From: Clostridia bacterium
GTDB taxonomy: Bacteria > Bacillota > DAOUPZ01
Reading direction: 5' to 3'
Length of the DNA stretch: 64,000 nt
Assembly (NCBI GenBank): GCA_030625885.1
Contig: DAOUPZ010000016.1
Location: forward strand, 1 to 64,000
The translations under genes were made by a program, and so were the position numbers. The notes under the pieces were generated by a model. That model searched no databases. It was given only the letters and a program-made list of their open reading frames with translations, and was not told the origin of the DNA. Shown piece after piece: positions 37,696-55,773 of the stretch (position 1 is its first letter; every line of letters starts with the position of its first letter).

Positions 37696-38757
37696 TTATT
37701 TAATAAGCACTTCATTTAATACAGCAATCAATTTGACATTTGCGTCTCGATCCTTCACAGCCAAACGAAAATGCTGTGGCGTTAAGGAATTAAACCCATC
37801 CGGCGTACGAATCAGAATTCCTTTTTTGACCATCTCATCTCTTAAACGCCATGCATCCCATTCTGGTAATGTCAATCGCGCCAGGAAAAAATTAGTCTGG
37901 GACGAATATACCTCCAGTCCCTTAACAGCCTTTAAGCCTTCATATAAAAATGATCTTTCCGCCTGAATCCATTGTCTGGAACGCTCGATATAGTTTTCAT
38001 CTGCAAAGATGGTCTCTGCTGCCAAAACAGCTAACGTATTAATATGCCAGGATAACTGCTGCGATTCAATCTTTTGTAACAAATCCCTATTACCACTGAC
38101 ACCATATCCCAGTCGAATACCCGGCATACCAAAAAATTTTGTTGCTGCCCGAATAACAAACAGGTTAGGTAACTGATCAATAAAACGAACCATTGAGTTA
38201 TGAGGATATGCATCCGTAAATTCTATAAAAGCTTCATCTACCAGCAACATACTCTGTTTTTGCGCCAGCTCCCGAGCAAAATCAAATAACTGATCCCTGG
38301 GAATAAGTGTCCCCGTTGGATTATTGGGATTACAGATCACCACCATTGAATAAGGTTTAACTTTTTTGAGCAGTCCCTCTAAATCAACTTTTTGGTATCC
38401 CGCTTCAAAAGCATCACACTCTTCCCATGCTAAAGCTGCCTGACTTGCCGCTTCCCGGTACTCGGAAAATGTAGGTCCGAGAATCAAAGCCTGTTTACAG
38501 CCTGCCATCGCAATACTTAAGAAAATGATTTCTACGGCACCGTTTCCCACCACAACCTGCTTCGGTAAAACATGCAAATATTCAGCAATTTTATTTTTTA
38601 CACTAGCATAGGCGATATCCGGGTATTGTGTGAGCTTATCAAGATGTTTTGGAATCATCATACGAAAAGAAGGGGGTATCCCAAAGGGATTAATATTAGA
38701 ACTAAAATCCAGTAACTCATTATTATAATCATATATATTACCACCATGAAATGCCAT
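37696..38757 (-). CDS. cobD: L-threonine-O-3-phosphate decarboxylase
   Basis: PLP enzyme of aminotransferase fold that makes (R)-1-aminopropan-2-ol phosphate, the nucleotide-loop linker. 353 aa; MAFHGGNIYDYNNELLDFSSNINPFG at the start is typical of CobD, and the PLP lysine is in ATKFFGMPGIRLGY. Start at 38757 follows AAGGAG. Next to cbiB, which uses the product. Confidence 0.9.
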   Translation of the reverse strand: MAFHGGNIYDYNNELLDFSSNINPFGIPPSFRMMIPKHLDKLTQYPDIAYASVKNKIAEYLHVLPKQVVVGNGAVEIIFLSIAMAGCKQALILGPTFSEYREAASQAALAWEECDAFEAGYQKVDLEGLLKKVKPYSMVVICNPNNPTGTLIPRDQLFDFARELAQKQSMLLVDEAFIEFTDAYPHNSMVRFIDQLPNLFVIRAATKFFGMPGIRLGYGVSGNRDLLQKIESQQLSWHINTLAVLAAETIFADENYIERSRQWIQAERSFLYEGLKAVKGLEVYSSQTNFFLARLTLPEWDAWRLRDEMVKKGILIRTPDGFNSLTPQHFRLAVKDRDANVKLIAVLNEVLIK

Positions 38758-38778
38758 CTCCCAAACTCCTTCCAAATA

Positions 38779-39720
38779 CTAAAGCATATAACGAATGATG
38801 GTGAAAAACAGCAACGCCATACAAGATGCGGCAACCATCAAACGTATAGAAACTAACATATCTTCTAAAACCAAACCTCGTCTCGCTTCTCCGATTGTTG
38901 GTTTATAAACTATTTTTCCAAAATAATAATTGGATCCGCCCAGCTGTATACCCAATGCACCGGCAGCGGCTGCCTCAGGATATCCGGCATTCGGACTGCT
39001 ATGTTTTCTCCCATCTCGCATCATGACCTGCCATCCAGACACGACATCTAATCCTAATACCGCCCCGGCTAAAGCAATACAAGCACCTGTTAAACGAGCC
39101 GGAATGAAATTAACCACATCATCCAGCTTTGCTGCTGCCCACCCAAAATCATAGTATTTTTCATTTTTATATCCTACCATGGAATCCATTGTATTAATAG
39201 CTTTATAGGTAAGCGCCAAGGGTGCCCCGCCAATAAACATATACATAAGAGGTGCTATAATCCCATCCGATGTATTTTCTACCACGGTTTCCACAATAGC
39301 ACGCGCTATTTCGTTCTGATTCAATGCTTCCGTATCTCGCCCAACTAAATATGAAAGTAATTGTCGGGCTTTAGGTATATCCTGTGTCTTTAATACCTGA
39401 TAAACTTTTAGAGCTTCTTTTCCCAAACATTTCATCGCCAGACACGTCCATAAGAGAACGATATTAACAACCCAAAATAAGCCGGGATGAATCTGTTGGC
39501 ATAACCACAATAGTCCATAAGAACTACCATATGTCATTAAAACAGTAGAAACAACCAATAAAACACCACCATATTTCAATCTTCTCGAAGAAGAACCATA
39601 TTTTCTGATGCGCTTTTCAAACCATTGAATATACTTACCGATAAACCGTACAGGATGCGGAAACCAGTACGGATCACCAAGCAGCCCGTCCATTATAAAT
39701 GCAGCATAAATGCTAACCAT
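38779..39720 (-). CDS. cbiB: adenosylcobinamide-phosphate synthase
   Basis: Membrane-bound enzyme that attaches aminopropanol phosphate to adenosylcobyric acid. 313 aa with several membrane helices. DGLLGDPYWFPHPVRFIG near the start and ARAIVETVVENTSDGIIAPL in the middle are family signatures, and FIPARLTG follows. Overlaps the cobQ 3' end by 8 nt. Confidence 0.94.
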   Translation of the reverse strand: MVSIYAAFIMDGLLGDPYWFPHPVRFIGKYIQWFEKRIRKYGSSSRRLKYGGVLLVVSTVLMTYGSSYGLLWLCQQIHPGLFWVVNIVLLWTCLAMKCLGKEALKVYQVLKTQDIPKARQLLSYLVGRDTEALNQNEIARAIVETVVENTSDGIIAPLMYMFIGGAPLALTYKAINTMDSMVGYKNEKYYDFGWAAAKLDDVVNFIPARLTGACIALAGAVLGLDVVSGWQVMMRDGRKHSSPNAGYPEAAAAGALGIQLGGSNYYFGKIVYKPTIGEARRGLVLEDMLVSIRLMVAASCMALLFFTIIRYML

Positions 39721-41221
39721 CTAACCTGTCCTCCATAATTTCATAGATTTTCTTCATATCCAGATGTTCTCGAACAATATCCGCTAATTGGTCATATTGT
39801 TCTTCTTTATACTGCCAATAATCTACACCTGTTCGTTTAATCGGTTCCTTTTTTCTAATTTCACGTACATTATCTAGATAATTTCCTGTAAAGAAAGCGT
39901 TATCAAAAATACCATGAAAATACGTCCCCGCTGCGGTCTTGTTCAGATTCATGGCGCCATCCATACCCTGCAAAGCACCATTGTCTTTGGGTATGACTTT
40001 AATGAATGGCATACTATTTTTACCCAACGCTGTATCCCCCATATGTATTTCGTATCCCTGTACCTTTTTACCAAACCAATCTTCAATACCTTCTGACAAA
40101 GTGGTTGTCTTTTCATGACTGAAAGTCGTTACCACATCTAAGAGACCCAAACCATCTAAAACTTCTTGTGATGCTTCCACCTGCATCGGATCAAGAATTC
40201 TCTTTCCTAACATTTGATAACCGCCGCATATCCCAAACACACAACTGTTGTTTTGATGGGCAGAGAGAATTTGCTCCGCCATTCCAGTCTGATAAAGCTT
40301 TAGGCAATCATCCATGGTGCTTTTCGTCCCGGGTAGAATAATTAGATCGGGCTCACCCAAAGGATCTGTCAATTCCACAAACCGCAAGCGCACATCTCTT
40401 TGCAAAGATAGGGCATTAAAATCTGTAAAGTTTGAAATATGGGGCAATTTAATGACCGCAACATCCAAATCTCCCTGCTCATTCCGAGTATACTTCTCCC
40501 AATCCGTTACACTATCTTCATCTTCTAAATCCAAATTAAAATGCGGAATAACCCCGAGCACAGGCACATGGATTAATTCTTCCAACATTTGAAGACCCGG
40601 TTTTAAAATTTCCAAACTGCCGCGGAACTTATTGATAATAACACCTTTAACCCGACAACGCTCTTCTTCTGTCAGCAGCATCATGGTACCCACCAAAGAG
40701 GCAAAAACACCCCCTCTATCAATATCTCCTATCAGGATTACCGGAGAATCAGCCATTTCCGCCATGCCCATATTGACAATGTCATCCTCTTTCAAATTGA
40801 TTTCTGCTGGACTGCCTGCGCCTTCAATCACCACAATATCACTTTCATCTGCAAGCGAACGATAGATTGCTTTAATCTTTTCCCGCAGCTGAGGCTTAAA
40901 CTTAAAATATTCTACCGCATCCATGTCAGCATAAACGATTCCATTAAAAATCACCTGTGATTGATGGTCCGTCGTTGGCTTTAACAAGATGGGATTCATA
41001 CGAGAAGAAGGAACTTGATGAGCCGCTTCCGCCTGCATGACCTGTGCCCTTCCCATTTCATGCCCTTCGGGGGTAATGGCAGAATTCAGTGACATATTTT
41101 GTGATTTAAAGGGATTAACATGATAGCCATCCTGCGTAAAAATACGACACAATGCTGTTGCTAAAATGCTTTTCCCTACCGATGATGAAGTTCCCTGCAG
41201 CATCACGCTTTTTCCTTTCAT
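39713..41221 (-). CDS. cobQ: cobyric acid synthase
   Basis: Amidates b, d, e and g positions with glutamine. 502 aa. N-terminal P-loop GTSSSVGKSILATAL, IEGAGSPAEINLK, GDIDRGGVFASL; C-terminal amidotransferase with the nucleophile in GICGGYQMLG, intact. Start at 41221 after AGGAGG. Confidence 0.95.
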   Translation of the reverse strand: MKGKSVMLQGTSSSVGKSILATALCRIFTQDGYHVNPFKSQNMSLNSAITPEGHEMGRAQVMQAEAAHQVPSSRMNPILLKPTTDHQSQVIFNGIVYADMDAVEYFKFKPQLREKIKAIYRSLADESDIVVIEGAGSPAEINLKEDDIVNMGMAEMADSPVILIGDIDRGGVFASLVGTMMLLTEEERCRVKGVIINKFRGSLEILKPGLQMLEELIHVPVLGVIPHFNLDLEDEDSVTDWEKYTRNEQGDLDVAVIKLPHISNFTDFNALSLQRDVRLRFVELTDPLGEPDLIILPGTKSTMDDCLKLYQTGMAEQILSAHQNNSCVFGICGGYQMLGKRILDPMQVEASQEVLDGLGLLDVVTTFSHEKTTTLSEGIEDWFGKKVQGYEIHMGDTALGKNSMPFIKVIPKDNGALQGMDGAMNLNKTAAGTYFHGIFDNAFFTGNYLDNVREIRKKEPIKRTGVDYWQYKEEQYDQLADIVREHLDMKKIYEIMEDRLDG

Positions 41222-41231
41222 GATCGTCCTC

Positions 41232-41828
41232 CTACTCTGTTGCATTAATTTTTTTTATCGTACAATGTCCGTCCACAAGCTCCAACAGGCTATAAGTGCC
41301 CTGTTCAAAACAAAAATTCCAATAACCCTCTTCCTTCATCCCCATCAGTTCAGCAGCAATCACCCTTAACGTTCCCTGATGAGCAACAATCAAAATCGTT
41401 TCGTCCAATCCACCAGCAAAAATCTGCGCCAGACTGCTTTTGACACGGTTGTAAAAAATCATAAATGAGTCGCCATCGGGTACTTGAGCATACTTCCAAT
41501 CATTAATCCATGATTGCCAATTTTCCGGATCATCAGCTTCAATTTCCTGATAATGTTTTCCTTCCCAAGCACCAAAATCAAACTCTGCGAAACCCTCTAT
41601 TTGCTGAATTTGCAGTTGTTTTTCACCAATAATACGCTTTGCTGTCTGCATACTCCGCTGCAAAGGACTGGAAATAACACGATCGAATTGAACAGGAAAC
41701 AATATGTTTTTCAGTTTCTCTGCTTGCCATACGCCGTAGTCACTCAACAAGCAATCCGTTCGTCCATAATAAACACCTTTCCTATTATATTCCGTTTCAC
41801 CATGACGTACCAGATACAATCTGATCAT
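41232..41828 (-). CDS. cobC: alpha-ribazole phosphatase-like histidine phosphatase
   Basis: Removes the phosphate from alpha-ribazole phosphate or the cobalamin phosphate. 198 aa; LVRHGETEYNRKGVYYGRTD has the phospho-histidine (His9), and IVAHQGTLRVIA the second. Operon position between cobS and cobQ favours this role over a general phosphatase. Overlaps the cobS stop by 4 nt. Confidence 0.87.
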   Translation of the reverse strand: MIRLYLVRHGETEYNRKGVYYGRTDCLLSDYGVWQAEKLKNILFPVQFDRVISSPLQRSMQTAKRIIGEKQLQIQQIEGFAEFDFGAWEGKHYQEIEADDPENWQSWINDWKYAQVPDGDSFMIFYNRVKSSLAQIFAGGLDETILIVAHQGTLRVIAAELMGMKEEGYWNFCFEQGTYSLLELVDGHCTIKKINATE

Positions 41829-42577
41829 AGAATACCAATCCTTCCAAGCAGAGCCATAACCAGCAAACAGACAATTTCCACCACTTCACTTCCTGCTCCC
41901 AGCGTATCACCCGTCATCCCCTGTATTTTAGACTGAATGTAGTATCGATAAAATATCCCGCAAAGCAAACAAATACCAAACAAATAGATACTGACCATTC
42001 CAAGAAAACCGAACAAAATAATTTTCCCTAAAAATAACGTTACAAATAAACTGACTATTGAAATTTTACCAATATAAAAATTTCCCAAACCGCTGCCCTT
42101 TCTGGCATATTGCGCTCGATACATCAATACACTCTGCATCGTTTTAGCAGCAACCGGCGCCAGTAAAATCGCCAATACAATTTTCTCTGAGGGAATAGCT
42201 GCAAGCAGTATCATCCGAAACAAAAGATCAAAGACAATGGCCAGTACACCATTGGTACCAACCCGGCTGTCCCGCATAATTTCCAGCATCTGCTCTAGCG
42301 GACGCGCTGAATATATACCGTCACAGGTATCCGCAAGCCCGTCCAAATGAAAACCGCCTGTCACTAATACATTTGCCAAAATGGCACAAAGAATAGGGAA
42401 ATAACCGTTCAGTAAATAATCTGCCCCTAAATACACCAGCGAACAAAAACTGCCTATAACCAGACCCGCAATCGGAAAATATATAATTCCTTTAGCAAAA
42501 TCATTTTCTTTAATGTCAATTTGAACGGGAATAGGAATACGCGTTAAAAACTGTAATGTTAAAATTAATCGTCTCAT
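41825..42577 (-). CDS. cobS: cobalamin 5'-phosphate synthase
   Basis: Integral membrane enzyme joining alpha-ribazole (phosphate) to GDP-cobinamide. 250 aa with about six helices. The start RRLILTLQFLTRIPIP and the acidic motif HLDGLADTCDGIYS are the family marks, with RDSRVGTNGVLA. Start at 42577 after GAGGGG. Confidence 0.93.
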   Translation of the reverse strand: MRRLILTLQFLTRIPIPVQIDIKENDFAKGIIYFPIAGLVIGSFCSLVYLGADYLLNGYFPILCAILANVLVTGGFHLDGLADTCDGIYSARPLEQMLEIMRDSRVGTNGVLAIVFDLLFRMILLAAIPSEKIVLAILLAPVAAKTMQSVLMYRAQYARKGSGLGNFYIGKISIVSLFVTLFLGKIILFGFLGMVSIYLFGICLLCGIFYRYYIQSKIQGMTGDTLGAGSEVVEIVCLLVMALLGRIGIL

Positions 42578-42588
42578 ACAATCCCCTC

Positions 42589-43143
42589 TTATTTGATCTT
42601 CATAGGCATACCGCAAACCGTCAAATAAACTTCATCCGCACAGGATGCTAAATACTGATTCACTCTTCCTGCAATATCTCGAAAAACCCTTCCCAGCTTG
42701 CTTTCCGGAACAATACTGCTTCCCAATTCATTGGTGACCAGAATGACTGTCGCTTCCACATCCTGAATCCCGTTAATCAGTTGATGCATTTCAGTAAGAA
42801 TTTTGTTTTCCACCGCCTCAAAATCGATCTCTTCCAGTGGATGGTTATGACAAAATTCCAGCATCAGATTAGAAGTCATTATGGTTACACAATCCAGTAA
42901 AATACCGTTAAAAAACTTCCCTTTTTCTCGAATTACATTTCCCAATCCTTTATAGCCTTCATACGTTTCCCATTTCTGCGGTCTTGAATTTTGATGCTTT
43001 CTAATTCGCATCTTCATTTCATCATCATACGCCATAGCGGTAGCAATATAAAGAATATTGCCGCCTAATTTTTTGGCATGTTGTTCAGCATATTGACTCT
43101 TCCCACTTCTTGCGCCGCCTGTAATTAACATGATTTTTCCCAT
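42589..43143 (-). CDS. cobU: adenosylcobinamide kinase/guanylyltransferase
   Basis: Phosphorylates adenosylcobinamide and forms the GDP intermediate. 184 aa; P-loop TGGARSGKSQYAE, the guanylylated histidine region RKHQNSRPQKWETYEG, and VTNELGSSIVPE. Start at 43143 fits AAGGTGG 6 nt upstream; a start 6 nt earlier would abut that site. Confidence 0.93.
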   Translation of the reverse strand: MGKIMLITGGARSGKSQYAEQHAKKLGGNILYIATAMAYDDEMKMRIRKHQNSRPQKWETYEGYKGLGNVIREKGKFFNGILLDCVTIMTSNLMLEFCHNHPLEEIDFEAVENKILTEMHQLINGIQDVEATVILVTNELGSSIVPESKLGRVFRDIAGRVNQYLASCADEVYLTVCGMPMKIK

Positions 43144-43154
43144 ATCCATCCACC

Positions 43155-44222
43155 TTATCTGATATCTACATAATCACTGTCATCTATATTTCCTTCTGTA
43201 AACGTACCCATATCACAAATGATTTTTGCTGCCGCTTCAATGAGCTGAAATGCCAAAGGACAGCCGGAACCTTCCCCCAGCCGCATATTTAAATTGAGCA
43301 TGGGCTCTATGCCTAACAAATCAACTGCAATTTGAAACCCCGGCTCTGCAGAACAATGGGAAGGAATCATATACCCTTTTACCAAGGGATTGATTTTATA
43401 TGCCGTTAATGCAGCCGCCATCGAAATGAAACCATCTATGACGATGGGCACACGATAATAGGCTGAGCCTAAAAAACAACCCACCATACCGGCAATGTCA
43501 AATCCACCCACTTTTGCAAGAACATCCAGCGGATCGTCTGGAGTGGGTTGGTTGATTTCCAGCACCTGCTTAATGACCCCTTTTTTATGTGCATATTGCG
43601 CTTCAGTTAATCCTGCTCCCTTTCCTACGCTTTCATCTACCGAGCAGCCTGTAAATGCTGAGATAATGGCACTGCTACTACTGGTATTGCCGATCCCCAT
43701 TTCTCCGGTTCCCAACAACTCGTAACCTTCATTAACTAACTGTTCCACCATTTCAATACCAACTTCAATCCCCTCTATGGCCTCTTCCCGCGTCATAGCA
43801 GGCCCTTTGACCATATTAGAAGTTCCCTGACGGATTTTTCGTTGTATGAGCTGAGGATGATTGACTTGCCCCTTTATCCCAATATCCACCACGCGAATAT
43901 CTGCTCCCGCATGTTTTGACAAGACATTAATCCCGGTAATGCCTTTGAAAAAATTACCTGTTTGCAAAACCGTTACTTCTTGCGGCGCTGGACTTACTTG
44001 TTCTTCATAGATACCATTATCTGCTGCCATCACAATCGTCACTTTTTTATGAATTTCATTGTACAGCTTACCTGTAATTCCTGCCAGCTGCGCCGCAATG
44101 TCTTCCAGTCTCCCCAGGCTGCCGATCGGTTTAACCAGCCCGTCCAATCGTTGCTGTGCTTTTTTCTTTGATACGTCATCCAACGGTTGAATGCCATTGA
44201 CGACTTGCTCAAACATTTTCAT
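43155..44222 (-). CDS. cobT: nicotinate-nucleotide:dimethylbenzimidazole phosphoribosyltransferase
   Basis: Activates the lower-ligand base by phosphoribosylation. 355 aa; LDGLVKPIGSLGRLEDIAAQL near the start, AADNGIYEEQVSPAPQEVT, and the catalytic glutamate in RLGEGSGCPLAF. The start at 44222 follows AAGGGG inside the end of the nitrilase gene; longer readings have no ribosome site and lie within that gene. No base-synthesis genes (bza, bluB) are visible. Confidence 0.93.
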   Translation of the reverse strand: MKMFEQVVNGIQPLDDVSKKKAQQRLDGLVKPIGSLGRLEDIAAQLAGITGKLYNEIHKKVTIVMAADNGIYEEQVSPAPQEVTVLQTGNFFKGITGINVLSKHAGADIRVVDIGIKGQVNHPQLIQRKIRQGTSNMVKGPAMTREEAIEGIEVGIEMVEQLVNEGYELLGTGEMGIGNTSSSSAIISAFTGCSVDESVGKGAGLTEAQYAHKKGVIKQVLEINQPTPDDPLDVLAKVGGFDIAGMVGCFLGSAYYRVPIVIDGFISMAAALTAYKINPLVKGYMIPSHCSAEPGFQIAVDLLGIEPMLNLNMRLGEGSGCPLAFQLIEAAAKIICDMGTFTEGNIDDSDYVDIR

Positions 44223-44223
44223 T

Positions 44224-45072
44224 CTATTCGCCCCTTCTTTCTTCACTTTTCCATAATTTTTTATATAATTGTGGTTTCCTATAATATAAGAAAAAAGAAT
44301 CCCCCATTGATATTCTCTCATGTTGTCGTGGCAAATTGACCTGATCTGCCGCAAGGAAAACTGTGACCATGCTTTCCTTCTCTGTAAAATCTTGTGCAAT
44401 AATATTTCCCTTAGGATCAACTACCAGAATTCCCCCACCAAATTGCTTGTCTTTCCCATTAGTTCCTACCAAATTACAACAAGCTACAAAAACCGTATTA
44501 TCATAGGCACGAGCAGGAATATATTTCAACCATAATTCTCTGCGTCTTAATGATGAAAGCGGCGAGGCATGAGGAACAAAAATAATCTCAGCACCTTGTA
44601 ATGATAGAACTGTTGAAACCTCAGGGAAGTGACTATCCCAGCAAATTTCTATTCCAAAAGTTGCTTTTGGTTCATGGAAAACAGGTAAAACATCTCCTGA
44701 AACAAATCGTTTTTTTTCTCTTTCTCCTAAATGTGTTTTTCGATACCGCTGGACCCGTCCATCAGGAAAACAAACGACCTGGGTAATATAAAACAAATCT
44801 CTATCTTCTTTTTCACAAAATCCTGTCAGAATAGTCATCTCATTTACCTGAGATAATTTACTTAAAAATTGTATGCTTTTCTCCCTAACACCTTCTTCCC
44901 ATAATACACACTCATCAAGAGCATAACCATGTACCGCCATCTCCGGAAAACAAATTATATCCGTCTCTTGTACTTTGGCAGCTTCCACAAAGTGTTTGAT
45001 CTTTTTTAGATTTTCTTCTGTTTCTCCCACTCGCGATTCCATTTGTACCAAAGATATCTTACAGTTTTCCAT
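44224..45072 (-). CDS. nitrilase superfamily amidohydrolase in the cob operon
   Basis: 282 aa, a carbon-nitrogen hydrolase with complete Glu-Lys-Cys triad: Glu44 in CFPEMAVHGY, Lys112 in YRKTHLGE and Cys144 in GIEICWDSHFPE. It hydrolyses an amide or nitrile, or acts as an amidase/beta-ureidopropionase-type enzyme; the substrate is unknown. It sits between the B12-binding lipoprotein and cobT, overlapping the region around the cobT ribosome site, so co-translation is likely. No signal peptide. A role in corrin side-chain amide hydrolysis, lower-ligand precursor handling or amide salvage is speculation. Confidence 0.85.
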   Translation of the reverse strand: MENCKISLVQMESRVGETEENLKKIKHFVEAAKVQETDIICFPEMAVHGYALDECVLWEEGVREKSIQFLSKLSQVNEMTILTGFCEKEDRDLFYITQVVCFPDGRVQRYRKTHLGEREKKRFVSGDVLPVFHEPKATFGIEICWDSHFPEVSTVLSLQGAEIIFVPHASPLSSLRRRELWLKYIPARAYDNTVFVACCNLVGTNGKDKQFGGGILVVDPKGNIIAQDFTEKESMVTVFLAADQVNLPRQHERISMGDSFFLYYRKPQLYKKLWKSEERRGE

Positions 45073-45090: not shown

Positions 45091-46548
45091 TTAATTTAAT
45101 ACTTTCAATTGATTTAAAGCTTCTACAACTTCTTTTCCAGTCACAAGCTGCTGAGGATTAAATTGCCCATTATCACACTGCATCAAATGATTATTAACAA
45201 CAATTTGCACAATTCTTGAATTGGAAACCTCATTAATATCTTTAATATTCACCTTTTTTTGTGTATCTTTTAAATCATGTAACATAAATAAAATACCAGC
45301 CAATTCTCCTCTTGTTATTTTTTGCTCAGGATAAAACATTTCTGAGCCATTTTCTTTATAGCTTTCCATATATCCCGAAAGAACGGCTGTCTCAATGAAA
45401 TCAAAATTTGGGTGATCTACAGCAACATCTTTAAACATTCCATACGTATGCCCTTTATATTGTTTCTTGTAATATTTTGAAGTAGGTACGAAAATTTCTT
45501 TATGCTTATAACGTACAGCTATTTCAGCCATCTGATTCCTAGTAACAACATCCTCCGCAGCAAATCTAGTAATATCATCAACAATTTCCGGATAAAACAT
45601 TCTTGTTAGTTCTTTTATCCCTTTAATATAACGAAAATTAGGACTGGATATAATCTTTTCATTAATGACGTAGACCCTATTATTTTTGACAGCCTTAATC
45701 GCAGAAAATCCGGGTCTAATAGAAATGGCATGTTGATTACCCCCTGCATTCATTGCCCCCCTTTGGGAAACAAAAACATCAATATCATTACCATTTTCAA
45801 GTATTCTTTCTGCTCCAAAAGCAGCAATGGAACTCCCTTTTGTAACGGCTTGAGCATTTTTGGCAACATTGATTCCTCCGGCATTTTCAATCGCTTTAGC
45901 TGCCATTGAATCAGGCGTAATCGTTTTATAACCATTTTCTGAAGATTCAAAGTATACTTGTACTTTAGAAGTCATATTTTGTGTCAATTCACTGATATGA
46001 TCAATCCCTGCATGAAAATCCTGCAAAAGATTTGCAGCTTGTTCTTCTTTTCCTGTAAGAAGCGCCAATTTCTGAATATAGGTATCAAACTCAGCAAATT
46101 TTTCCGGATAAAGTGTCACAACATTAATGCCCGCTTTTTCAAGTACTGCTACAAAGTCAGGTACCTTTCTCTGAATAAAAGGTCTGATTAAAACCACATC
46201 CGGCTTTGCCGCAATGACTTTTTCAGGATCAGACCGATAATCGAATACGGGTTTTTCAAGTGATTGAGGCGGATAAATATCTTGACGCCCAACCCCAATT
46301 ATTTCTTCATCCAAACCAATTGCAAATAAATTCTCTGTATGAGCTGAATATAAAGATATGATTCTTTGTGCCGGTTCCTTCATACGAATTTCTTTTCCTA
46401 AATCATCTGTAAAAGCTATTTTATATGACCCATCATCTTCCCCTTGAGCTTTGTTAATTTCGGTATTGGAACAAGAAGAAAAAATTAAAGCTACCATTAA
46501 ACATAACAGGATCAGGATATTCCGTTTACTTTTATGATAAATATTCAT
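45091..46548 (-). CDS. cobalamin-type ABC binding lipoprotein fused to SLH domains
   Basis: 485 aa. The leader ends in FSSC with a lipidation-type cysteine. Residues about 45-290 are a periplasmic binding domain of the BtuF/FhuD class (IISLYSAHTENLFAIG, GVGRQD, KPDVVLI). The rest, about 320-485, has three S-layer-homology (SLH)-like repeats, including FKDVAVDHPNFDFIETAVLSG and VTRNQMAEIAVRY. So one protein carries a lipid anchor and wall-binding domains. Located downstream of btuC-btuD-cbiK in the riboswitch operon, it most likely captures a corrinoid for BtuCD. Start at 46548 after GGGAGG. Confidence 0.8.
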   Translation of the reverse strand: MNIYHKSKRNILILLCLMVALIFSSCSNTEINKAQGEDDGSYKIAFTDDLGKEIRMKEPAQRIISLYSAHTENLFAIGLDEEIIGVGRQDIYPPQSLEKPVFDYRSDPEKVIAAKPDVVLIRPFIQRKVPDFVAVLEKAGINVVTLYPEKFAEFDTYIQKLALLTGKEEQAANLLQDFHAGIDHISELTQNMTSKVQVYFESSENGYKTITPDSMAAKAIENAGGINVAKNAQAVTKGSSIAAFGAERILENGNDIDVFVSQRGAMNAGGNQHAISIRPGFSAIKAVKNNRVYVINEKIISSPNFRYIKGIKELTRMFYPEIVDDITRFAAEDVVTRNQMAEIAVRYKHKEIFVPTSKYYKKQYKGHTYGMFKDVAVDHPNFDFIETAVLSGYMESYKENGSEMFYPEQKITRGELAGILFMLHDLKDTQKKVNIKDINEVSNSRIVQIVVNNHLMQCDNGQFNPQQLVTGKEVVEALNQLKVLN

Positions 46549-46628
46549 CTCAATCATCCTCCCATATAAACATACTACAATCATGAATTAGCATAAACCT
46601 TATAGTGATATTTTATGAAATATTAATA

Positions 46629-46664: not shown

Positions 46665-47567
46665 CTATTCTTCTTCTCCGTTATCCTCTATCGCTGCTTT
46701 TGTATGCGCTACATAAAGTTCTTGAATAGCCTTATTTTCACCTAAACCATGGATATAGGTGTTTACAACAAATCCATTTTTCTTGAGAATACTTTTCCAT
46801 GCATCCTCTTCATCACCGGCCATATCGTTATTAGCATGATCTCCTGCTACCAGCATGAATGGCATTAAAGTAACCGTTTCAATATGATTATCATTTAATT
46901 TTTCAATGACATTATCCAAATCAGGATACCCTTCTACGGTCCCCATAAATACGTTTTTTACGTCCATATCTTCTAAAGCATATTGGAAACATGCATAAGC
47001 TGAGTTAGCAGGATGATGCGTTCCATGTCCCATAAATGCCACGGCTTCATTGTCTTTAAGCTCTGGAAGCTGTGTTTTTAAGGCATTAACAACCGCTTTA
47101 TAATCCTCAACACTTGTAAGTAATGGAGAACCAATGTTGAATTTATCAAAAGAAGATTTAAATTCTGACGCAATTTGAACAACATCCGTGTATTCTGCCC
47201 CATTAATCACATGTAATGGTTGAACAATAACCTCTGAAAATCCGTCGTCTTTCATTTTTTGCAACCCTTGTTTTACAGTGTCAATTTCGATACCATCTCT
47301 GTCTTTTAACTTTTTGATGATAATATCGGATGTAAACGCACGTCTTGTTTCATAATCTTTAAATGCATCTTTAATCTCATTTTCTACTGCTTCAATCGTT
47401 ACTTCGCGGGTATCCGCATAACTCGTCCCAAAACTAACCACAAGAATTCCCTTTTGGTTTGGATCTTTAGCAACCTCTCCGGAAGTTTCCTGTGTGCAAC
47501 CCACTAAAGAAACAACCATTAACATTAAAGATAGAACCAGTGATAATAAAGTAATCTTACTTTTCAT
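46665..47567 (-). CDS. cbiK: CbiK-type cobalt chelatase with lipoprotein signal
   Basis: 300 aa, the CbiK class of anaerobic cobaltochelatase. It inserts Co(II) into sirohydrochlorin or, in other bacteria, Fe into sirohydrochlorin. After the leader come GILVVSFGTSYADTR, PLHVINGAEYTDVV with the metal-site His, GHGTHHPANSAYACFQ, and the third site GDHANNDMAGDEEDAW. The N-terminus is a signal peptide ending in LVGC (Cys24), so the enzyme is predicted on the outer face of the membrane. It is unlike Salmonella CbiK, and like periplasmic CbiK-P of Desulfovibrio. Start at 47567 (ATG) after AAAGGAGAG. It lies between the transporter ATPase and the binding protein. Confidence 0.85.
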   Translation of the reverse strand: MKSKITLLSLVLSLMLMVVSLVGCTQETSGEVAKDPNQKGILVVSFGTSYADTREVTIEAVENEIKDAFKDYETRRAFTSDIIIKKLKDRDGIEIDTVKQGLQKMKDDGFSEVIVQPLHVINGAEYTDVVQIASEFKSSFDKFNIGSPLLTSVEDYKAVVNALKTQLPELKDNEAVAFMGHGTHHPANSAYACFQYALEDMDVKNVFMGTVEGYPDLDNVIEKLNDNHIETVTLMPFMLVAGDHANNDMAGDEEDAWKSILKKNGFVVNTYIHGLGENKAIQELYVAHTKAAIEDNGEEE

Positions 47568-47629
47568 TGTCAACTCTCCTTTGATATTTATAAATATGAT
47601 TCATTTCCCGGCCGGAAAAACTTTAAAAA

Positions 47630-48385
47630 CTAAGGCATAACGATTAAACCTTTTCCTTTAACATGATAAACATCAATATCAAATATTTCTTTTATAAAGG
47701 AAGCGGTCATCAAGTTTTGGGGACAATCTGTCCCACGTATTTTACCTTCTTTCAAAACAATCACTTCATCACTAAATGCATAAGCCATATTTAAATCATG
47801 CATGATAGAAATAACCGTTACATTCTTTTCTTTTACCAATTGACTGATTAATTTTAATGATCTTAGCCGATAAGCAATATCCATAGCAGAAAAAGCTTCG
47901 TCTAAAAATAAAACCTGCGGCTCCTGTGCTAAAGCACGCGCTAAAATGACGCGCTGCATTTCACCACCGCTTATTTCTGTTATAAGCGAATCTGTAAACT
48001 TTAAAGTATCTGTTACTTCCATTGCTTCATATACAATTTCCATATCTTTTTCACTTAAAGGTTTCATTCTTTGCTTAAAAGGATTTCTCCCCATCATGAC
48101 AATTTCAAGACAAGTAAATGGGAATTGTATATTTGCCTTTTGATAGATGACGGTAATAACTTGAGCTAATGTTTCAATAGAATAAGCATGAAGCAGTTTG
48201 TCTAGAAAAAAGATTTCTCCTGTATCCTTTTTTAAGTTTCCGGTTAATAAATTCATTAACGTTGTTTTCCCAGAACCATTTGGCCCTATTATAGAAATGA
48301 AACTACCCTTTTTAATTGTAAGATTAATACTTTTCAATATATATTTTGAGTCATATCGAAACCATAGATCATTAATTTTAAACAC
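47630..48385 (-). CDS. btuD: iron-siderophore/cobalamin-type ABC ATPase
   Basis: 251 aa, one nucleotide-binding domain. Walker A GPNGSGKTT, signature ISGGEMQRVILARAL, Walker B VLFLDEAFSAMD. It powers the BtuC-like permease encoded upstream. Fold family is the FecCDE/BtuCD importers. The cobalamin riboswitch and neighbours argue for corrinoid import rather than iron. Confidence 0.9.
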   Translation of the reverse strand: MFKINDLWFRYDSKYILKSINLTIKKGSFISIIGPNGSGKTTLMNLLTGNLKKDTGEIFFLDKLLHAYSIETLAQVITVIYQKANIQFPFTCLEIVMMGRNPFKQRMKPLSEKDMEIVYEAMEVTDTLKFTDSLITEISGGEMQRVILARALAQEPQVLFLDEAFSAMDIAYRLRSLKLISQLVKEKNVTVISIMHDLNMAYAFSDEVIVLKEGKIRGTDCPQNLMTASFIKEIFDIDVYHVKGKGLIVMP

Positions 48386-48441: not shown

Positions 48442-49506
48442 CTAGTGAATATTATTATTGTTTTTAATAAATATATATATAAAAAATGGTCCCCCAAAAA
48501 GCGTCGTCATCACACCAACAGGAATCTCAACATTTAATAATACTCTTGAGAAAGTATCTGCCAAAAGCAACAATAAACCACCCAACAACGCTGCAATAGG
48601 AATTAAAACTCGATTGTCAGTCGTTAAAGAAAATCGCAGCATATGGGGAACAACAAGGCCAACAAACCCAATAATCCCGCTAATTGATACACAAACTGCC
48701 GTGATCATTGATGCGATTACAAAAAATAGTTTACGGATCTTATCAGAATTAACGCCAAGAAATCTGGACTCTCTTTCCCCTAAACATAATATGTTTAAAT
48801 CTTCAGAGAAATAGATACAAATAAGAATTCCAATGATAATAAATATACTTCCTAGCAATACATGATGCCATGTTCTGGCAGACAAACTTCCCATCAACCA
48901 ATATACAATGGCTGACACTTGTTCACCTGATGCACTTTTTAGTAAACTAATACCCGAAGAAAGAATAGAACTGACAATAATTCCGGCAATAATCAGATTA
49001 GAAGAGGATAAATATCCATTCCTATTTGCAATTTTACTGACTAAAACCAAAGTCAATATGGCACCCACAAAAGCACACGGAATAATAGGAAGGGTATATT
49101 CTATAACAAACAAATTAAAGTATATTGCCAAAACAGCACCAAAAGCAGCACCTGTAGATACCCCAATGGTATATGAATCGGCAAGCGGGTTCATAAGCAG
49201 CGCCTGGAACACAACACCGGATACCGCCAACCCACCTCCCACTAAAATAGCCGTTATGATTCGGGGAAGCCTGATATCCCACACAATAGCAACACTTGCC
49301 TCATCTATATTTTCCAGAATAAAAGGTTTAAAAGCTAATTTTCCATAAACAATTTTTAAAATATCCAAAACCTTAATATCTGCTCTCCCCATATTGACAA
49401 CCGTTAAAATAAATATAATTAAAAGAACTGACAGCATAACACCAATATACAGTGATTTTTTTTGACGTCTTTTTAGTTTATTTGATATTTCAAGTCTACT
49501 TTGCAT
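48442..49506 (-). CDS. btuC: FecCD/BtuC-family ABC permease
   Basis: 354 aa with about ten membrane helices. LAVSGVVFQALLMNPLADSYTIGVSTGAAFGAV and GFVGLVVPHMLRF are the FecCD family signatures. First gene after the cobalamin riboswitch, followed by its ATPase, so a corrinoid importer (BtuCD with the SLH lipoprotein) is inferred. Family members also move iron chelates; context decides. Confidence 0.88.
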   Translation of the reverse strand: MQSRLEISNKLKRRQKKSLYIGVMLSVLLIIFILTVVNMGRADIKVLDILKIVYGKLAFKPFILENIDEASVAIVWDIRLPRIITAILVGGGLAVSGVVFQALLMNPLADSYTIGVSTGAAFGAVLAIYFNLFVIEYTLPIIPCAFVGAILTLVLVSKIANRNGYLSSSNLIIAGIIVSSILSSGISLLKSASGEQVSAIVYWLMGSLSARTWHHVLLGSIFIIIGILICIYFSEDLNILCLGERESRFLGVNSDKIRKLFFVIASMITAVCVSISGIIGFVGLVVPHMLRFSLTTDNRVLIPIAALLGGLLLLLADTFSRVLLNVEIPVGVMTTLFGGPFFIYIFIKNNNNIH

Positions 49507-49809: not shown

Positions 49810-49937
49810 AGCGTCAATCCCAAAAATAATTCTTATGCAACACCCACATAGCTTGTCCTAACATGATAGGCACAACCGTTTTGTGTTGCAACGATTTTAT
49901 GGATAACGTTTCTCTTTCCCTCCGAAAGTCCCACATA

Positions 49938-50106
49938 AAGTATCAGACAGGTCTCCTGGCTTAGAATCATCTTACTCCCTATTCCTTCCCGAAGCAAAAA
50001 CTTCAGTGGATGTATAGGTTTCATCCTCTTCACAGTAGCGGGGGCTGCAATGGATTTTAACCATTTTCCCTTTTCACTCCAAATGTCAATTCAATTGAAG
50101 TACCTG
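49938..50106 (-). ncRNA. cobalamin riboswitch aptamer
   Basis: On the minus strand it has AGGTACTTC at the 5' side, GAAAAGGGAAAATGG, then GCAGCCCCCGCTACTGTGAAG (B12-box family core) and ends with AGCCAGGAGACCTGTCTGATAC, the conserved 3' element. Upstream of the terminator at 49784-49809 and of btuC. Cobalamin binding should reduce expression of the import and synthesis train. Boundaries are approximate. Confidence 0.93.
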
Positions 50107-50155
50107 AACTTTTTATATTAAGTTTTATGTATAAACCAACTCAAGTGTATTATAT

Positions 50156-50182: not shown

Positions 50183-50863
50183 TTAAATCAAATTGTGATG
50201 ATTCATTAATTTTTTTCTCGCAAATATCAGCGACATATAGTCATCATCCAGTAGTATTTGATTTTTATCATAGATAATCTCCTGTTCTTCCTGCATACAC
50301 CTTTTGATATATACATAACTGAAATGATGCTTCTCCAACTTATTGATGATATCCCGTTTATTCTGATTGACTTTTAAAATACAAATGCTGTCAACTGCTT
50401 GTAATATTTTCTCATCTACATTTCGATCACACAAATAAAAACTTTCATCTTTTATTGTAATCGGTATATTCAAACAGCATGCCGCTGCATTAAAAGATGC
50501 AATTCCCGGTACTGTTTCAACTTGGATATTGAATTTTTGAAGTTCATACATAAGGTATATATAAGTGCTGTAAACCATCGGGTCACCAATAGTTAAATAA
50601 ACAGCAATCTGTTGGTCTTTAACAATACTGTTTATTTTTTGAGCAGCATCTTCATACTTTGCTGTATTGTCCTCGCCCATTGAAAAATCAAGTTCAATGA
50701 TATTTTTTTCAGACGTATATTTACTAACAATACTTTTGGCTAAACTTTTTCCCTTGCTCTTAGGTACAAATATATAATCACACGCTTTAATAAGATTGTA
50801 AGCCTTCATGGTTATTAATTCTTCATCTCCAGGTCCTAACCCTATTCCATAAATTTTCTTCAT
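50183..50863 (-). CDS. cbiL: cobalt-factor II C20-methyltransferase
   Basis: SAM-dependent methylation of C20, early in the corrin ring route. 226 aa, class III methylase: MKKIYGIGLGPGDEELITMKA, LTIGDPMVYSTY and VETVPGIASFNAAAC. Start at 50863 follows AGGAGG. It is on the other side of the riboswitch from the rest of the cob train, so it is not under that riboswitch but probably in or near the methyltransferase unit upstream. Confidence 0.9.
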   Translation of the reverse strand: MKKIYGIGLGPGDEELITMKAYNLIKACDYIFVPKSKGKSLAKSIVSKYTSEKNIIELDFSMGEDNTAKYEDAAQKINSIVKDQQIAVYLTIGDPMVYSTYIYLMYELQKFNIQVETVPGIASFNAAACCLNIPITIKDESFYLCDRNVDEKILQAVDSICILKVNQNKRDIINKLEKHHFSYVYIKRCMQEEQEIIYDKNQILLDDDYMSLIFARKKLMNHHNLI

Positions 50864-51030
50864 ATACTTTCCTCCTGGACTTTTATCTCCTTCTAAAAAG
50901 ATATTAAACAACTTATCACCAAAATAACATACCATTAAAAATCTTAAGGCCCTGGAAAATGGTACTACCTTCAGTTATAAATGTAAGCAACCCTTTTAGA
51001 TTATTCCATTTCCATCATCCTATTATACAT

Positions 51031-51177: not shown

Positions 51178-52068
51178 TTATCCCTCGAAACCATTCTCTA
51201 ATTCTATACGCCATATAACTGAGTCTTTAATTTTCAAAGGCGTTCTTTTAATACAGCTGTGTCCTATAATTTTTACGTCTTCATTCTTTTCTAATAAATC
51301 ACCTATAACTTCACCATATGTAAGTTTTTCATCATATTCAATAGGCTCTGATTTACTAAAGCCTAATTGTTCAAAAGCGGTGGAAGTTTTGCCACAAAGA
51401 TGTATTATAGAATTTTCTAAATTATCTCCCACTCTTTTTAAAATATTATAAGTAATCCTCCCACTTATTTCTTTATATACCCTTGGCCCAACTATATCCA
51501 GGGCACCTACAGGATCACCGTATGATATGATTCTTGCCCCTCTTTTAACACCCTCTAAAGCATACTTAACAATGTTATCTTCAATAACTTGCATAAACTG
51601 ATCAACTATTTCTCTGCTTTTTCTTATACCGCTGTAAAAAGTTCTGGGCTCTATTAATGAAGATATTATGGTAAAAGGTCCTGCCACATTTAAACTCACT
51701 ATTTCATTTTGATTACTTAAATTTTCAACAGCACCTAATACCTGTTTGATTCTTCCCCTACTTAAATTAATCTCTTCAATATTCACTAATTCATCTATAC
51801 TATTAAATACGTAATCACTAACCCTGGGACCCATTTTTTCATCTCCAAGGTTTATATCCGCACCCATTGCTTCAGCTTCTACCGTCACACAAAAAGGAAG
51901 TTTACAAATGGTATCTTCTTGGTATTTTCTTAATGCTTTAGATAAACTAACCATATCATTCATATTTGTGTGAGTCTCTGGAAACTTTAATCTGGTATGA
52001 TTAATGACGTCTTGTGGTATTTCCTCTAAATTATCACTCGTACATTTAAAATTTATTTTTACTTCCAC
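51178..52068 (-). CDS. MtaA/UroD-like methyltransferase, N-terminally short
   Basis: 296 aa of the uroporphyrinogen decarboxylase/methyl-cobamide:CoM-type fold. It keeps the zinc-site pattern HLC (His223, Cys225) and a later Cys272. PFCVTVEAEAMGADI and ARIISYGDPVGAL match the MtaA-like paralogue in the same operon. The first 55 residues differ: the usual N-terminal LTPKERL...REAVDRPP region is absent and replaced. The GTG at 52068 is chosen for AGGAG upstream; an ATG 36 nt earlier lacks a site. It may transfer methyl groups to or from the corrinoid protein with an unknown acceptor. Confidence 0.7.
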   Translation of the reverse strand: MEVKINFKCTSDNLEEIPQDVINHTRLKFPETHTNMNDMVSLSKALRKYQEDTICKLPFCVTVEAEAMGADINLGDEKMGPRVSDYVFNSIDELVNIEEINLSRGRIKQVLGAVENLSNQNEIVSLNVAGPFTIISSLIEPRTFYSGIRKSREIVDQFMQVIEDNIVKYALEGVKRGARIISYGDPVGALDIVGPRVYKEISGRITYNILKRVGDNLENSIIHLCGKTSTAFEQLGFSKSEPIEYDEKLTYGEVIGDLLEKNEDVKIIGHSCIKRTPLKIKDSVIWRIELENGFEG

Positions 52069-52158
52069 AATATCAACTCCTGATAAAATAGCTTTACGGC
52101 TCATATTCTTTCTGCTTTGTTTCTAATAGATGCTAATGTTAAGTTTGTTCTCCATTAT

Positions 52159-53976
52159 TTAATTGAAATTCAAACATCTCGTAAATAGTCTTTCATACCC
52201 TTCCATTGTAGACAGTTCATAATAACGAATATCTTTGGCAATCCGCTCCATCTCTTCTCTTACTTCTCCAGAAAGCAAACACATCAGCGCCCCTGTTTTA
52301 GAAGAATTACCAATATAACGTATCTTGTCCCTTAGTTCTCCCGGGATAATACCTGTGCCCACTAAGCTGTCCACACTTAAATGCTTGCCAAACTGACCGG
52401 CAATAATGACTTCATCTAAGTCTTCCATCGTGATCTCCATTAAATCTAAAAGTGCATAAAAACCCGATAAAATAGCACCTTTAGCAAGTTGCACCTGCCG
52501 AATATCGCCCTGTGTAATGGCAATCGTTTTAGAATTTGAATCAATAATAACTTTTCTTTTACCATCTTCTTCTATCAAAAATTGCGCTAAGCCTTGTAAT
52601 TTTTCATCAGATTGTAGCTCGGCTTTCTTTTTTAAACGACCTGTTTTCCCTATCATACCAACTCTTGATATTTCAGATATTGCTTCTAAAATGCCGCTCC
52701 CACAAACACCTACCTGATCAGCCTCTCCAATAACTTTTAAATTGATTTCATTGTCATTAATCTTAACACCTTCGATTGCGCCTTCTGATGCTCGCATACC
52801 ACAGCTGATATTCATACCTTCTAAAGCAGGCCCTGCTGCACATGAACAGGAAGATAACTGGCCAGCTTTTGATAACACAATCTCACCATTGGTACCCATA
52901 TCAATGAATAAAATATTTTTATGGGTTTCTGTTAGTTGTGATACCACAACGCCTGCTACAATATCTGCACCAATATAACTGGACACACCCGGCAAACAAT
53001 AAAGCCTTGCAAAGGGAGATAGGTTTAAACCCAATGCGTCCGCTGCAAAATTTTGGTGTTTTGAAAAAACAGTAGCAAATGGCGCCTTACCAATAGAAGC
53101 GGTGTCAACACCTAACAGCAAATGCATCATCGTCGCATTCGCCGCGATTGTTATCTCATAAACCCTTTCCGGTAACACATTGTTTTTACGACATAATTCC
53201 GCCATTAATTGATTTAAACAATCAATAACGGCACTTTGCAACACCTTCAGACCATTTTCCTTACGCCGAACAAAATCAATCCGTGACAACACATCTAAAC
53301 CATATTCTTTTTGCGGGTTAATTGCCGTTTCCGAAGCAATTTCCCTGCCCTCGCTTAAATCAACCAGGGATAAAACAACGGTTGTTGTACCGATGTCTAC
53401 GGCAATTCCATACATTTCAGCACAGGTATCTCCAGGTTCTAACCCAATCAGCTCATTTCCTGCATAAATGGCCGTTACTTGCTCCTCTTTAAGTATTTCC
53501 GGCAAACTTCTCAAGAGCGAAGGATCACCGGATAAGATAGGTGCGTCCAAAAATGCTTCTAATAAATCCTGATATGATAAATTATTTTCTAAAGTAGGCT
53601 TAGTAAGATCATATACCTTCTTGGAAATAACAGGATTTATTTCTAATTCAGGCATATAGCCATCCGTTAAAATTTTATGTTTTACCTCTTTTTTATCTAA
53701 TAACTTGACGGTCAAATCACCTAAAGGGATGACTAAACAGCTTAAACGAATCCCTTGATCTATTTCTTCATCCGTTAAGTATTTTAATTCCTCAGCGGTT
53801 AGTGCATTGACTAAACCCTGTATAATTTGCACTTTACATTTCCCGCATATCCCTTTGCCACCGCAGGGACTCTCTACCATCATCCCCTGGCTTTGCAGGA
53901 TATCTAAAAGATGGTTTCGTTCTGTAACTGCAAACAAATACTTTTCTTCTTGCCCATAAACAGTTAATTGATACAT
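52159..53976 (-). CDS. ferredoxin/ASKHA corrinoid activation protein (RACo-like)
   Basis: 605 aa. The N-terminal domain is a 2Fe-2S ferredoxin with Cys38, Cys44, Cys47 and Cys80 (CGGKGICGKC). The long C-terminal domain has ASKHA-type ATP-binding signatures: VDIGTTTVVLSLVDL, FIDMGTNGEIV, and AGQFGKHL. This layout is that of RACo and related activators, which re-reduce inactive Co(II) corrinoid proteins using ATP. The target is surely the corrinoid protein encoded two genes upstream. Start ATG at 53976 after GCGAGG. Confidence 0.88.
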   Translation of the reverse strand: MYQLTVYGQEEKYLFAVTERNHLLDILQSQGMMVESPCGGKGICGKCKVQIIQGLVNALTAEELKYLTDEEIDQGIRLSCLVIPLGDLTVKLLDKKEVKHKILTDGYMPELEINPVISKKVYDLTKPTLENNLSYQDLLEAFLDAPILSGDPSLLRSLPEILKEEQVTAIYAGNELIGLEPGDTCAEMYGIAVDIGTTTVVLSLVDLSEGREIASETAINPQKEYGLDVLSRIDFVRRKENGLKVLQSAVIDCLNQLMAELCRKNNVLPERVYEITIAANATMMHLLLGVDTASIGKAPFATVFSKHQNFAADALGLNLSPFARLYCLPGVSSYIGADIVAGVVVSQLTETHKNILFIDMGTNGEIVLSKAGQLSSCSCAAGPALEGMNISCGMRASEGAIEGVKINDNEINLKVIGEADQVGVCGSGILEAISEISRVGMIGKTGRLKKKAELQSDEKLQGLAQFLIEEDGKRKVIIDSNSKTIAITQGDIRQVQLAKGAILSGFYALLDLMEITMEDLDEVIIAGQFGKHLSVDSLVGTGIIPGELRDKIRYIGNSSKTGALMCLLSGEVREEMERIAKDIRYYELSTMEGYERLFTRCLNFN

Positions 53977-54037
53977 GATGTTTTACCTCGCATATAAATA
54001 TTTAGAAAGACAGCCTGCCGCTGTCTTTATGGTTCCT

Positions 54038-55057
54038 TTACTCATATTCTTTAACGGCTTTAACCATTGCCCGAATATTTGCCATACGGGTTCGAGGACC
54101 AATACCACATGCCGGGGATAAAATATTTACCCCACTATCTATGCAGTTTTTAGAAATGCTTTTTATTTTTTCCGGCGTATTGTTTTCTAAAGCAAACGTA
54201 CTCACGTTCCCCATAATAGCCTTGCCGGATACATTCTCTGCTACTTGTTTTACACTGGTGATGGAATCAAAACTAATCGCATCACTGGTTAAAGCATTTA
54301 ATTCGTGATAGATACTTTTTAACCGCCCGCAAATATGAATGATGGTACCCACATCAGCCAAATCTTTGAGTGAATCAATAATTTGATTTAAATAGGGAAC
54401 CGCAAATTCCCGAAACATTTTCGGCCCTAATATTTCTCCGGTACCGCTGGGATCAGATAGGGTTAAAACATTTGCTCCCGCTTCCAATTGCGCCCTGCCA
54501 AAAGTAATCAGGTTTTCAGTGACAAACGACATCATCTGATGAGCTGTCTGAGAATTCTTGCGCAATTCTTTATAATAAACAGTGGGTTCCATTAAGGAAG
54601 ACGCTAAACTGACAGGCCCCGTTAGATTAGCGATAAGCGGAACATCCGGGTTTTTATCTTTAAGAATCTTTATGGCATTGATAACAACTTTCGCTCGACC
54701 TTCCTCAACATGAATCTTTCTTAGCTGTTGCCATTCTGTTACAGAATTTATGGGATAAGTCGTCACACGGGGTTCGTTAATTTTCGTTCCCATAAACACT
54801 GAGGCGCCCATAGCTTCCGCCTCTACCGTCATACAAAAAGGAACACCAAAATTCTCAAACCCACCCTGTTCATAAATACCGGCAGCAAGATCAGCCATTA
54901 AGTTTGGGTCACTATGCGCCTCAGGCCATTGACTTCCCGTCATATCCATGACTTCTTCCACAATCATATTCATCATTCCACCTGGACAAATACAGGGGGG
55001 CCGATCAACTGCTTCTCTTTGTAAAGCCAACTTTAATCTTTCTTTAGGAGTTAGCAA
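54038..55057 (-). CDS. mtaA: MtaA-like corrinoid:acceptor methyltransferase
   Basis: 339 aa of the MtaA/MtbA/CmuA family. The zinc ligands in HIC and SPAC are His241, Cys243 and Cys317. LTPKERLKLALQREAVDRPPC starts the chain, and FCMTVEAEAMGA and SDPSGTGEILGPKMF follow. It should move the methyl group from the methyl-corrinoid protein to coenzyme M in methanogens, but in a clostridium more likely to tetrahydrofolate or another thiol/acceptor. The TTG at 55057 fits GAGGTG; the ATG 18 nt before does not. Downstream is the corrinoid activator. Confidence 0.8.
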   Translation of the reverse strand: MLTPKERLKLALQREAVDRPPCICPGGMMNMIVEEVMDMTGSQWPEAHSDPNLMADLAAGIYEQGGFENFGVPFCMTVEAEAMGASVFMGTKINEPRVTTYPINSVTEWQQLRKIHVEEGRAKVVINAIKILKDKNPDVPLIANLTGPVSLASSLMEPTVYYKELRKNSQTAHQMMSFVTENLITFGRAQLEAGANVLTLSDPSGTGEILGPKMFREFAVPYLNQIIDSLKDLADVGTIIHICGRLKSIYHELNALTSDAISFDSITSVKQVAENVSGKAIMGNVSTFALENNTPEKIKSISKNCIDSGVNILSPACGIGPRTRMANIRAMVKAVKEYE

Positions 55058-55113
55058 TATGAACACCTCTAACATTTGTTATTTTCCTATTTTAATGCGT
55101 GTTATTCCATCCA

Positions 55114-55773
55114 TTAACATACTTTTGCTTCCCGTACTAAAGATTTTGCCAGCTTAACCGCCTTAGAGGCATCATCGGAATAATGCGCACCGATTTTGTT
55201 TGCAAAACTTGGTGAAATCGGCCCGCCACCTACCATCACTTTAATTCTTTCATATAAGTTTTCTTCTTTTAAGATTTGTACAACTCTTTCCATATTTTCC
55301 ATTGTCGTTGTCATCAGTGTAGATAGCGCAATAATATCCGCCTCAATCTCTTTTGCTTTTTCAACAAAATCCATTGGAGGTACATCTCTACCTAAGTCCA
55401 TCACTTCAAACCCGGATGTCTCCAGCATGATTTTAACTAAATTCTTACCGATATCATGTGTATCACCTTCCACAACACCAATAACCACTTTATGCTTATC
55501 ATCATTTTCGTCGTTTTTCAAATGCGGTCTTAAAACATCTAGACCCGCATACATGGCATCAGAACACATCAATAGCTCGGGAATATAATATTCTTCTTCT
55601 TCATACAGCTTACCCGCCCTTTCCATGCCCTCTGCTAATCCTTGATCAATCGCTTCATACACATCAAAGTTATTGTCAACATATCGTTGTGCCAATTCCA
55701 CTACTTGGTCCTCATCCATATCCACTACACAATCAGATAAATCTTTTAATAAACTTTGTTTTAAATCAGACAT
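55114..55773 (-). CDS. corrinoid protein (MtaC/MtbC family)
   Basis: 219 aa: N-terminal helical cap domain (1-90) and a Rossmann B12-binding domain (94-215). The His lower-ligand motif is D104-T-H106-D-I-G109 within VVEGDTHDIGKNLV, and LSTLMTTTMENME and VMVGGGP are the further B12 motifs. Start at 55773 follows GAGGGG; the longer frame begins in AT-rich sequence. First gene of the methyl-transfer cassette, so the substrate of the cassette is set by a partner MtaB- or MttB-type enzyme that is not in the window. Confidence 0.93.
   Translation of the reverse strand: MSDLKQSLLKDLSDCVVDMDEDQVVELAQRYVDNNFDVYEAIDQGLAEGMERAGKLYEEEEYYIPELLMCSDAMYAGLDVLRPHLKNDENDDKHKVVIGVVEGDTHDIGKNLVKIMLETSGFEVMDLGRDVPPMDFVEKAKEIEADIIALSTLMTTTMENMERVVQILKEENLYERIKVMVGGGPISPSFANKIGAHYSDDASKAVKLAKSLVREAKVC

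Follow-up and report, generated by a model that had tools for sequence, protein, structure and literature searches.

Salmonella CbiK (PDB 1qgo/2xwp) is a cytosolic sirohydrochlorin cobaltochelatase, whose catalytic glutamate and two catalytic histidines we take to be E89, H145, and H207. An exported form, CbiK-P, is found in Desulfovibrio vulgaris (PDB 2xvx/2xvy/2xvz); it resides in the periplasm without a lipid anchor, the organism has another CbiK in the cytosol, and the His that follows its GEEF motif is a heme ligand at the tetramer interface. We also take the gene for this exported protein to be the Desulfovibrio cbiK that lies under riboswitch control. The B12 riboswitch of Desulfovibrio controls cbiK-cbiL and btuCDF together (PMC545781), the same grouping as the one described below; the parallel was noted in 2004 without the present reading (PMC545781). 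Purified Salmonella CbiK requires neither ATP nor a partner and is active at sub-nanomolar Co2+ (PMC10206600), and thus such an enzyme could act outside a cell.

Another exported CbiK relative is FetB/IhtB of Porphyromonas gingivalis (PDB 9b86), whose role has been reported with heme and Mn-protoporphyrin at a Gram-negative cell surface. PMC6461909, citing Roper 2000, reports that P. gingivalis lacks the steps to precorrin-2, and the title of Roper 2000 refers to a functional corrin pathway. The tetrapyrrole precursor salvagers described by Shelton et al. (2018; PMC6461909) keep the corrin-ring and loop genes and miss early tetrapyrrole steps; the cases examined by experiment took ALA.

The window analyzed here is a stretch of 64,000 nucleotides from a Clostridia bacterium (contig DAOUPZ010000016.1), in which cbiK (46665–47567, minus strand) encodes a predicted lipoprotein class II chelatase of 300 amino acids. 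Its open reading frame runs from an ATG at 47567 to a stop codon at 46665–46667, and a Shine-Dalgarno sequence, AAAGGAG (47576–47582), lies 8 nt upstream of the ATG. The N-terminus, MKSK...SLVGC, has a predicted lipoprotein signal peptide (residues 1–23; 47499–47567) with the lipobox LVGC (residues 21–24; 47496–47507) and C24 as the lipidated residue by pattern. The segment MKSKITLLSLVLSLMLMVVSLVGC fits two lipoprotein patterns, the PS51257-type and the Gram-positive one, which occurred in 0.05% of shuffled CbiK N-termini and in 0.007% of random sequences with CbiK composition. A start downstream of the signal was ruled out: codons 15, 17, and 22 are inside the signal peptide and codon 43 is within the VVSFGTS strand, and none of these in-frame starts before the conserved core has a Shine-Dalgarno sequence. 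The clear lipoprotein signal described in an earlier, sequence-only reading of this DNA is hence upheld, and we predict CbiK to be an extracytoplasmic lipoprotein.

The complete PF06180 domain was recognized in CbiK (positions 1–262, 339 bits, gathering cut-off 26.2). The equivalog model for sirohydrochlorin cobaltochelatase CbiK (NF047852) gave 318 bits against a curated cut-off of 400, indicating homology under the same-function threshold. The catalytic domain aligns entirely with that of Salmonella CbiK (45% identity) and retains the same three catalytic residues as E125, H181, and H244; the Glu and both His are invariant across all 38 exported CbiK domains. Unlike Salmonella CbiK, the window protein has a lipoprotein signal, is paired with BtuFCD, and belongs to a genome in which sirohydrochlorin synthesis was not found. 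Its closest sequences are lipoprotein CbiKs of Tepidibacter (68%). CbiK-P, which the sequence-only reading had named as the nearest known case, is a fitting pointer to an exported CbiK, though the type of signal differs, but by sequence it is not the nearest (39%): the two proteins are far apart in the tree, where the long branch of CbiK-P calls for caution, and the position of the His after GEEF is occupied by T in the window CbiK. FetB is likewise remote (38%).

The cbiK gene is located between the gene for a btuD-like ABC ATPase (47630–48385) and that for a BtuF-like binding protein (45091–46584), in agreement with the position given for it before; all features of this cluster are on the minus strand. 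The ATPase matches ABC_tran, and its best NCBIfam models, heme/corrinoid ABC ATPases, scored below cut-off. A btuC-like permease (48442–49506; PF01032, 295 bits) precedes it, and a cobalamin riboswitch (49929–50122; RF00174, 120 bits) lies upstream of btuC. The NCBIfam equivalog cut-offs were reached by none of the three importer proteins (BtuC 262 of 461 bits; BtuD and BtuF far under). The binding protein is a predicted lipoprotein in which a Peripla_BP_2 domain (PF01497) is fused to a C-terminal SLH-like domain (PF00395); this fusion is conserved in Bacillota and Chloroflexota loci of the same type, and the protein may be attached to the cell wall besides the membrane.

Next to the importer genes lies cbiL (50183–50935; TIGR01467 above cut-off), whose product is the C20-methyltransferase of cobalt-factor II, that is, Co-sirohydrochlorin (PMC7242693). 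The other corrin-ring genes (29273–37502; cbiJ-cobO fusion, cbiH, G, F, T, E, D, C, A) are all intact by NCBIfam, and cobD, cbiB, cbiP/cobQ, cobC, cobS, cobU, and cobT follow at 37696–44420 (NCBIfam and Pfam). Every step from CbiL to a finished cobamide is therefore encoded within the window, and in this complete later corrin and loop pathway the genome resembles the tetrapyrrole precursor salvagers. In the fused open reading frame (29273–30622), cobalt-precorrin-6A reductase CbiJ is joined to the corrinoid adenosyltransferase CobA/CobO. A carbon-nitrogen hydrolase gene (44224–45072; PF00795) that received no NCBIfam name lies between btuF and cobT, and similar genes adjoin some of the related loci described below (L020, L021). 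Directly upstream of the cob cluster (51178–55854) are genes for two URO-D family methyltransferases, a RACo/AcsV-type reactivase, and a corrinoid protein, a corrinoid methyl-transfer system that is likely a consumer of the cobamide.

To the sequence-only reading, a second chelatase of the CbiX or CysG type would serve the pathway, and a genome search for cbiX or another cbiK was its suggested check. Genome-wide searches of the 3.10-Mb draft assembly (39 contigs, 98.07% completeness) found a single CbiK and no second CbiK, CbiX, CysG/Met8/SirC, or CobN, which leaves that proposal without a candidate. Two PF13241 matches were rejected as CysG/Met8/SirC, since their sequences and neighbors identify them as a TrkA-type protein and dipicolinate synthase A. 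HemB was also absent from the assembly by genome-wide search. The only tetrapyrrole methylases are CbiL, CbiH, CbiF, and CbiE, so there is no SUMT. The upstream genes covered by these searches (HemB, SUMT, SirC) are all missing, and no hem gene was observed among the open reading frames of at least 150 amino acids in the rest of contig C6, which contains ribosomal-protein and other genes. Thus, the cobamide pathway of this assembly has a complete end without a known beginning, and its sole chelatase bears an export signal. Because HemB and SUMT are absent, the genome lacks its own CbiK substrate; with SirC/CysG absent as well, none of the known routes would yield sirohydrochlorin, which is probably taken up from outside. 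This case differs from the salvagers that took ALA in the predicted position of the chelatase outside the cell and in the absence of SUMT and SirC, which would place the entry point at sirohydrochlorin or a later compound. Earlier, CbiK had been suggested to act on imported tetrapyrroles or on metal; the tetrapyrrole part of that suggestion is supported.

We then compared 80 CbiK loci, labeling each as exported or cytosolic from the presence of an N-terminal hydrophobic signal. The N-termini are sharply bimodal, with a signal in 28 and none in 52 and no borderline cases, and the strict lipoprotein pattern is found in 8, all of them within the exported set. The btuD gene is immediately upstream of cbiK in 12 of 28 exported loci and in 0 of 52 cytosolic ones (Fisher p ~5e-7, uncorrected for relatedness), and btuF is immediately downstream in 11 of 28 versus 0 of 52 (p ~2e-6, likewise uncorrected). 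Besides the window, the btuC-btuD-cbiK-btuF block with an exported CbiK occurs in 11–12 other loci, including those of Tepidibacter, Marinisporobacter, Desulforamulus, clostridia, and a Chloroflexota MAG. The permeases of this module form a distinct group (51–66% identity to the window BtuC, whereas no other FecCD permease of these loci exceeds 40%), and most module loci have the SLH-like domain at the C-terminus of the binding protein. In each module locus scanned, the module is preceded by a cobalamin riboswitch. The distance is short in all but L021, whose riboswitch is 4.4 kb upstream of btuC; this locus also has a second, more distant btuFCD set besides the module importer. Tepidanaerobacter sp. 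GT38 and a related MAG have this importer at the start of a single gene run, riboswitch-btuC-btuD-btuF-cbiA...cbiJ-cbiK, in which CbiK is exported. In nine relatives whose genomes combine the upper pathway with an exported CbiK, the main cbi cluster, as retrieved, lacks cbiL, and this gene is found close to the exported cbiK. Rather than being a stray gene, the window cbiK forms part of a conserved module, riboswitch-btuC-btuD-cbiK-btuF, next to cbiL. CbiK (before import), the importer, and CbiL (after import) are thus linked.

Exported CbiKs do not form a single clade; export is scattered on the tree, with 11 label changes, at least 4 of which are forced by well-supported branches. In two Marinisporobacter sp. 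loci (L013, ~9041–10780; L015, ~10001–11750), a 584-codon frame within the module encodes two CbiK domains behind one N-terminal lipoprotein-type signal. Sporomusa ovata (G015; L026/L073) has PF06180 matches at five places along with several CobN fragments in one region (C4:504488–508720), which suggests multiplication and decay of chelatase genes.

To relate export to ring synthesis, HemB, SUMT, SirC, and CbiK export were surveyed in 49 genomes; a genome search at class level had returned the window genome alone. The three upstream proteins are jointly missing from eight genomes, the window genome among them, which include members of Bacillota and, in one case each, Chloroflexota and Actinomycetota. 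Seven of these eight have an exported CbiK, and six of the seven have the module's importer subfamily; the exception (L014) has a cytosolic CbiK. One of the eight, a Propionibacteriaceae MAG (L064, G037), encodes an exported CbiK of 447 amino acids with a C-terminal extension and has a separate PF01903 match (46.7 bits, contig C27). An exported CbiK is also present in 22 of the 41 remaining genomes, often alongside a cytosolic CbiK or CbiX, so export cannot be read simply as a mark of auxotrophy; as a general marker of a lost upper pathway it was rejected (7/8 vs. 22/41, p = 0.12, uncorrected for relatedness).

Ring-making genes were undetected and the only chelatase is predicted to lie outside, beside an importer; cobalt is therefore probably loaded onto rings scavenged from other cells, which are then taken up. 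We propose that sirohydrochlorin outside the cell receives its Co2+ from the exported CbiK and that the BtuFCD subfamily of the module imports the Co-sirohydrochlorin for CbiL, a reading to which we give about an even chance. CbiK, lipid-anchored on the outer face of the membrane, would insert Co2+ into sirohydrochlorin of outside origin and would be the first enzyme of a tetrapyrrole-salvage route; BtuF, BtuC, and BtuD would bind and import the product, cobalt-factor II, and CbiL would begin its conversion to a cobamide inside the cell. What the DNA itself offers for this proposal is the signal peptide, the catalytic residues, the absence of another chelatase and of HemB, SUMT, and SirC, the later genes, and the riboswitch-controlled module; the location, substrate, and metal of CbiK are deduced from these, and the cargo of the importer from gene context. 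Among the open-access papers found, none describes a sirohydrochlorin importer, and none proposes both extracytoplasmic cobalt insertion and subsequent import of Co-sirohydrochlorin.

Several other explanations have to be weighed. The three absences could be one gap, because hem genes usually lie together and a hem operon could be unassembled in a draft of 39 contigs; sirohydrochlorin would then be made and the exported CbiK be an accessory. We consider this improbable, given the estimated completeness, the need for a cytosolic chelatase to be missing too, and the loss of all three genes in seven other genomes, six with an exported CbiK and one of the seven, that of Tepidanaerobacter sp. GT38, not labeled as a MAG. 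It is very unlikely that export is simply incomplete, such that a cytosolic remainder of CbiK suffices for cobalt insertion into imported, metal-free sirohydrochlorin. Although CbiK is the only chelatase found and L014 combines a missing upper pathway with a cytosolic CbiK, the signal is strong in many separate lineages, and the export label, in switching at least four times on well-supported branches, tracks the importer gene order. Alternatively, the exported CbiK might help to supply iron or porphyrin by binding heme-type porphyrins or by remodeling them, with their metal removed or exchanged; a function of this kind has been proposed for FetB/IhtB. For FetB, itself an exported relative, formation of Mn-protoporphyrin has been reported (PMC13402209), as has a link to the acquisition of iron from heme (PMC13227078). 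Such a role seems about as improbable as an assembly gap, since cbiK lies in a cobalamin-riboswitch module within the cob cluster and adjoins cbiL, and the window protein is nearer to Salmonella CbiK than to FetB.

A further explanation concerns cobalt supply: external sirohydrochlorin, the cell's own or foreign, would carry cobalt like a siderophore, with CbiK loading it and BtuFCD importing it, so that makers would secrete and re-import it. In several genomes with a full upper pathway (Tepidibacter G001 and G002, MAG G012), the exported CbiK is the only CbiK/CbiX-type chelatase and CobN is absent; MAG.313 is a case of such a sole chelatase. The cbiL found in these genomes adjoins the exported cbiK instead of being in the main cluster. 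CbiM was encoded in 0 of 28 exported loci and in 9 of 52 cytosolic loci, and delta-proteobacteria with cbiK, including Desulfovibrio, have been described without known cobalt transporters (Rodionov et al. 2004, PMC545781). On the other hand, the search for cobalt transporters covered the loci only, no sirohydrochlorin exporter was identified, and intracellular cobalt insertion could fall to a bifunctional SirC in these genomes. In upper-pathway genomes without another chelatase, either SirC inserts cobalt or self-made sirohydrochlorin is loaded outside, and the exported CbiK of sirohydrochlorin makers may have a role in cobalt capture. As an explanation for the window locus, we regard cobalt capture as rather unlikely, if less so than a heme-related role. 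A broader version is marginally less doubtful: sirohydrochlorin might be a shared extracellular cobalt carrier, loaded by secreted CbiK and imported by the BtuFCD subfamily, which some members make, while others, such as the window bacterium, have lost its synthesis and use what others release.

If the proposed loading of external sirohydrochlorin and import of its cobalt form are correct, cobalt insertion, which is held to be cytosolic in anaerobic B12 synthesis, would occur outside the cell in a recurring module, and sirohydrochlorin would be a traded intermediate of cobamide cross-feeding. Tetrapyrrole salvagers would gain a concrete uptake route, and a role would be offered for CbiK-P and possibly for FetB-type proteins. 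One BtuFCD subfamily, whose present annotation would be that of a B12 or heme importer, would receive a substrate prediction. In addition, automatic pathway calls may score synthesis as complete on the strength of CbiK genes of this kind.
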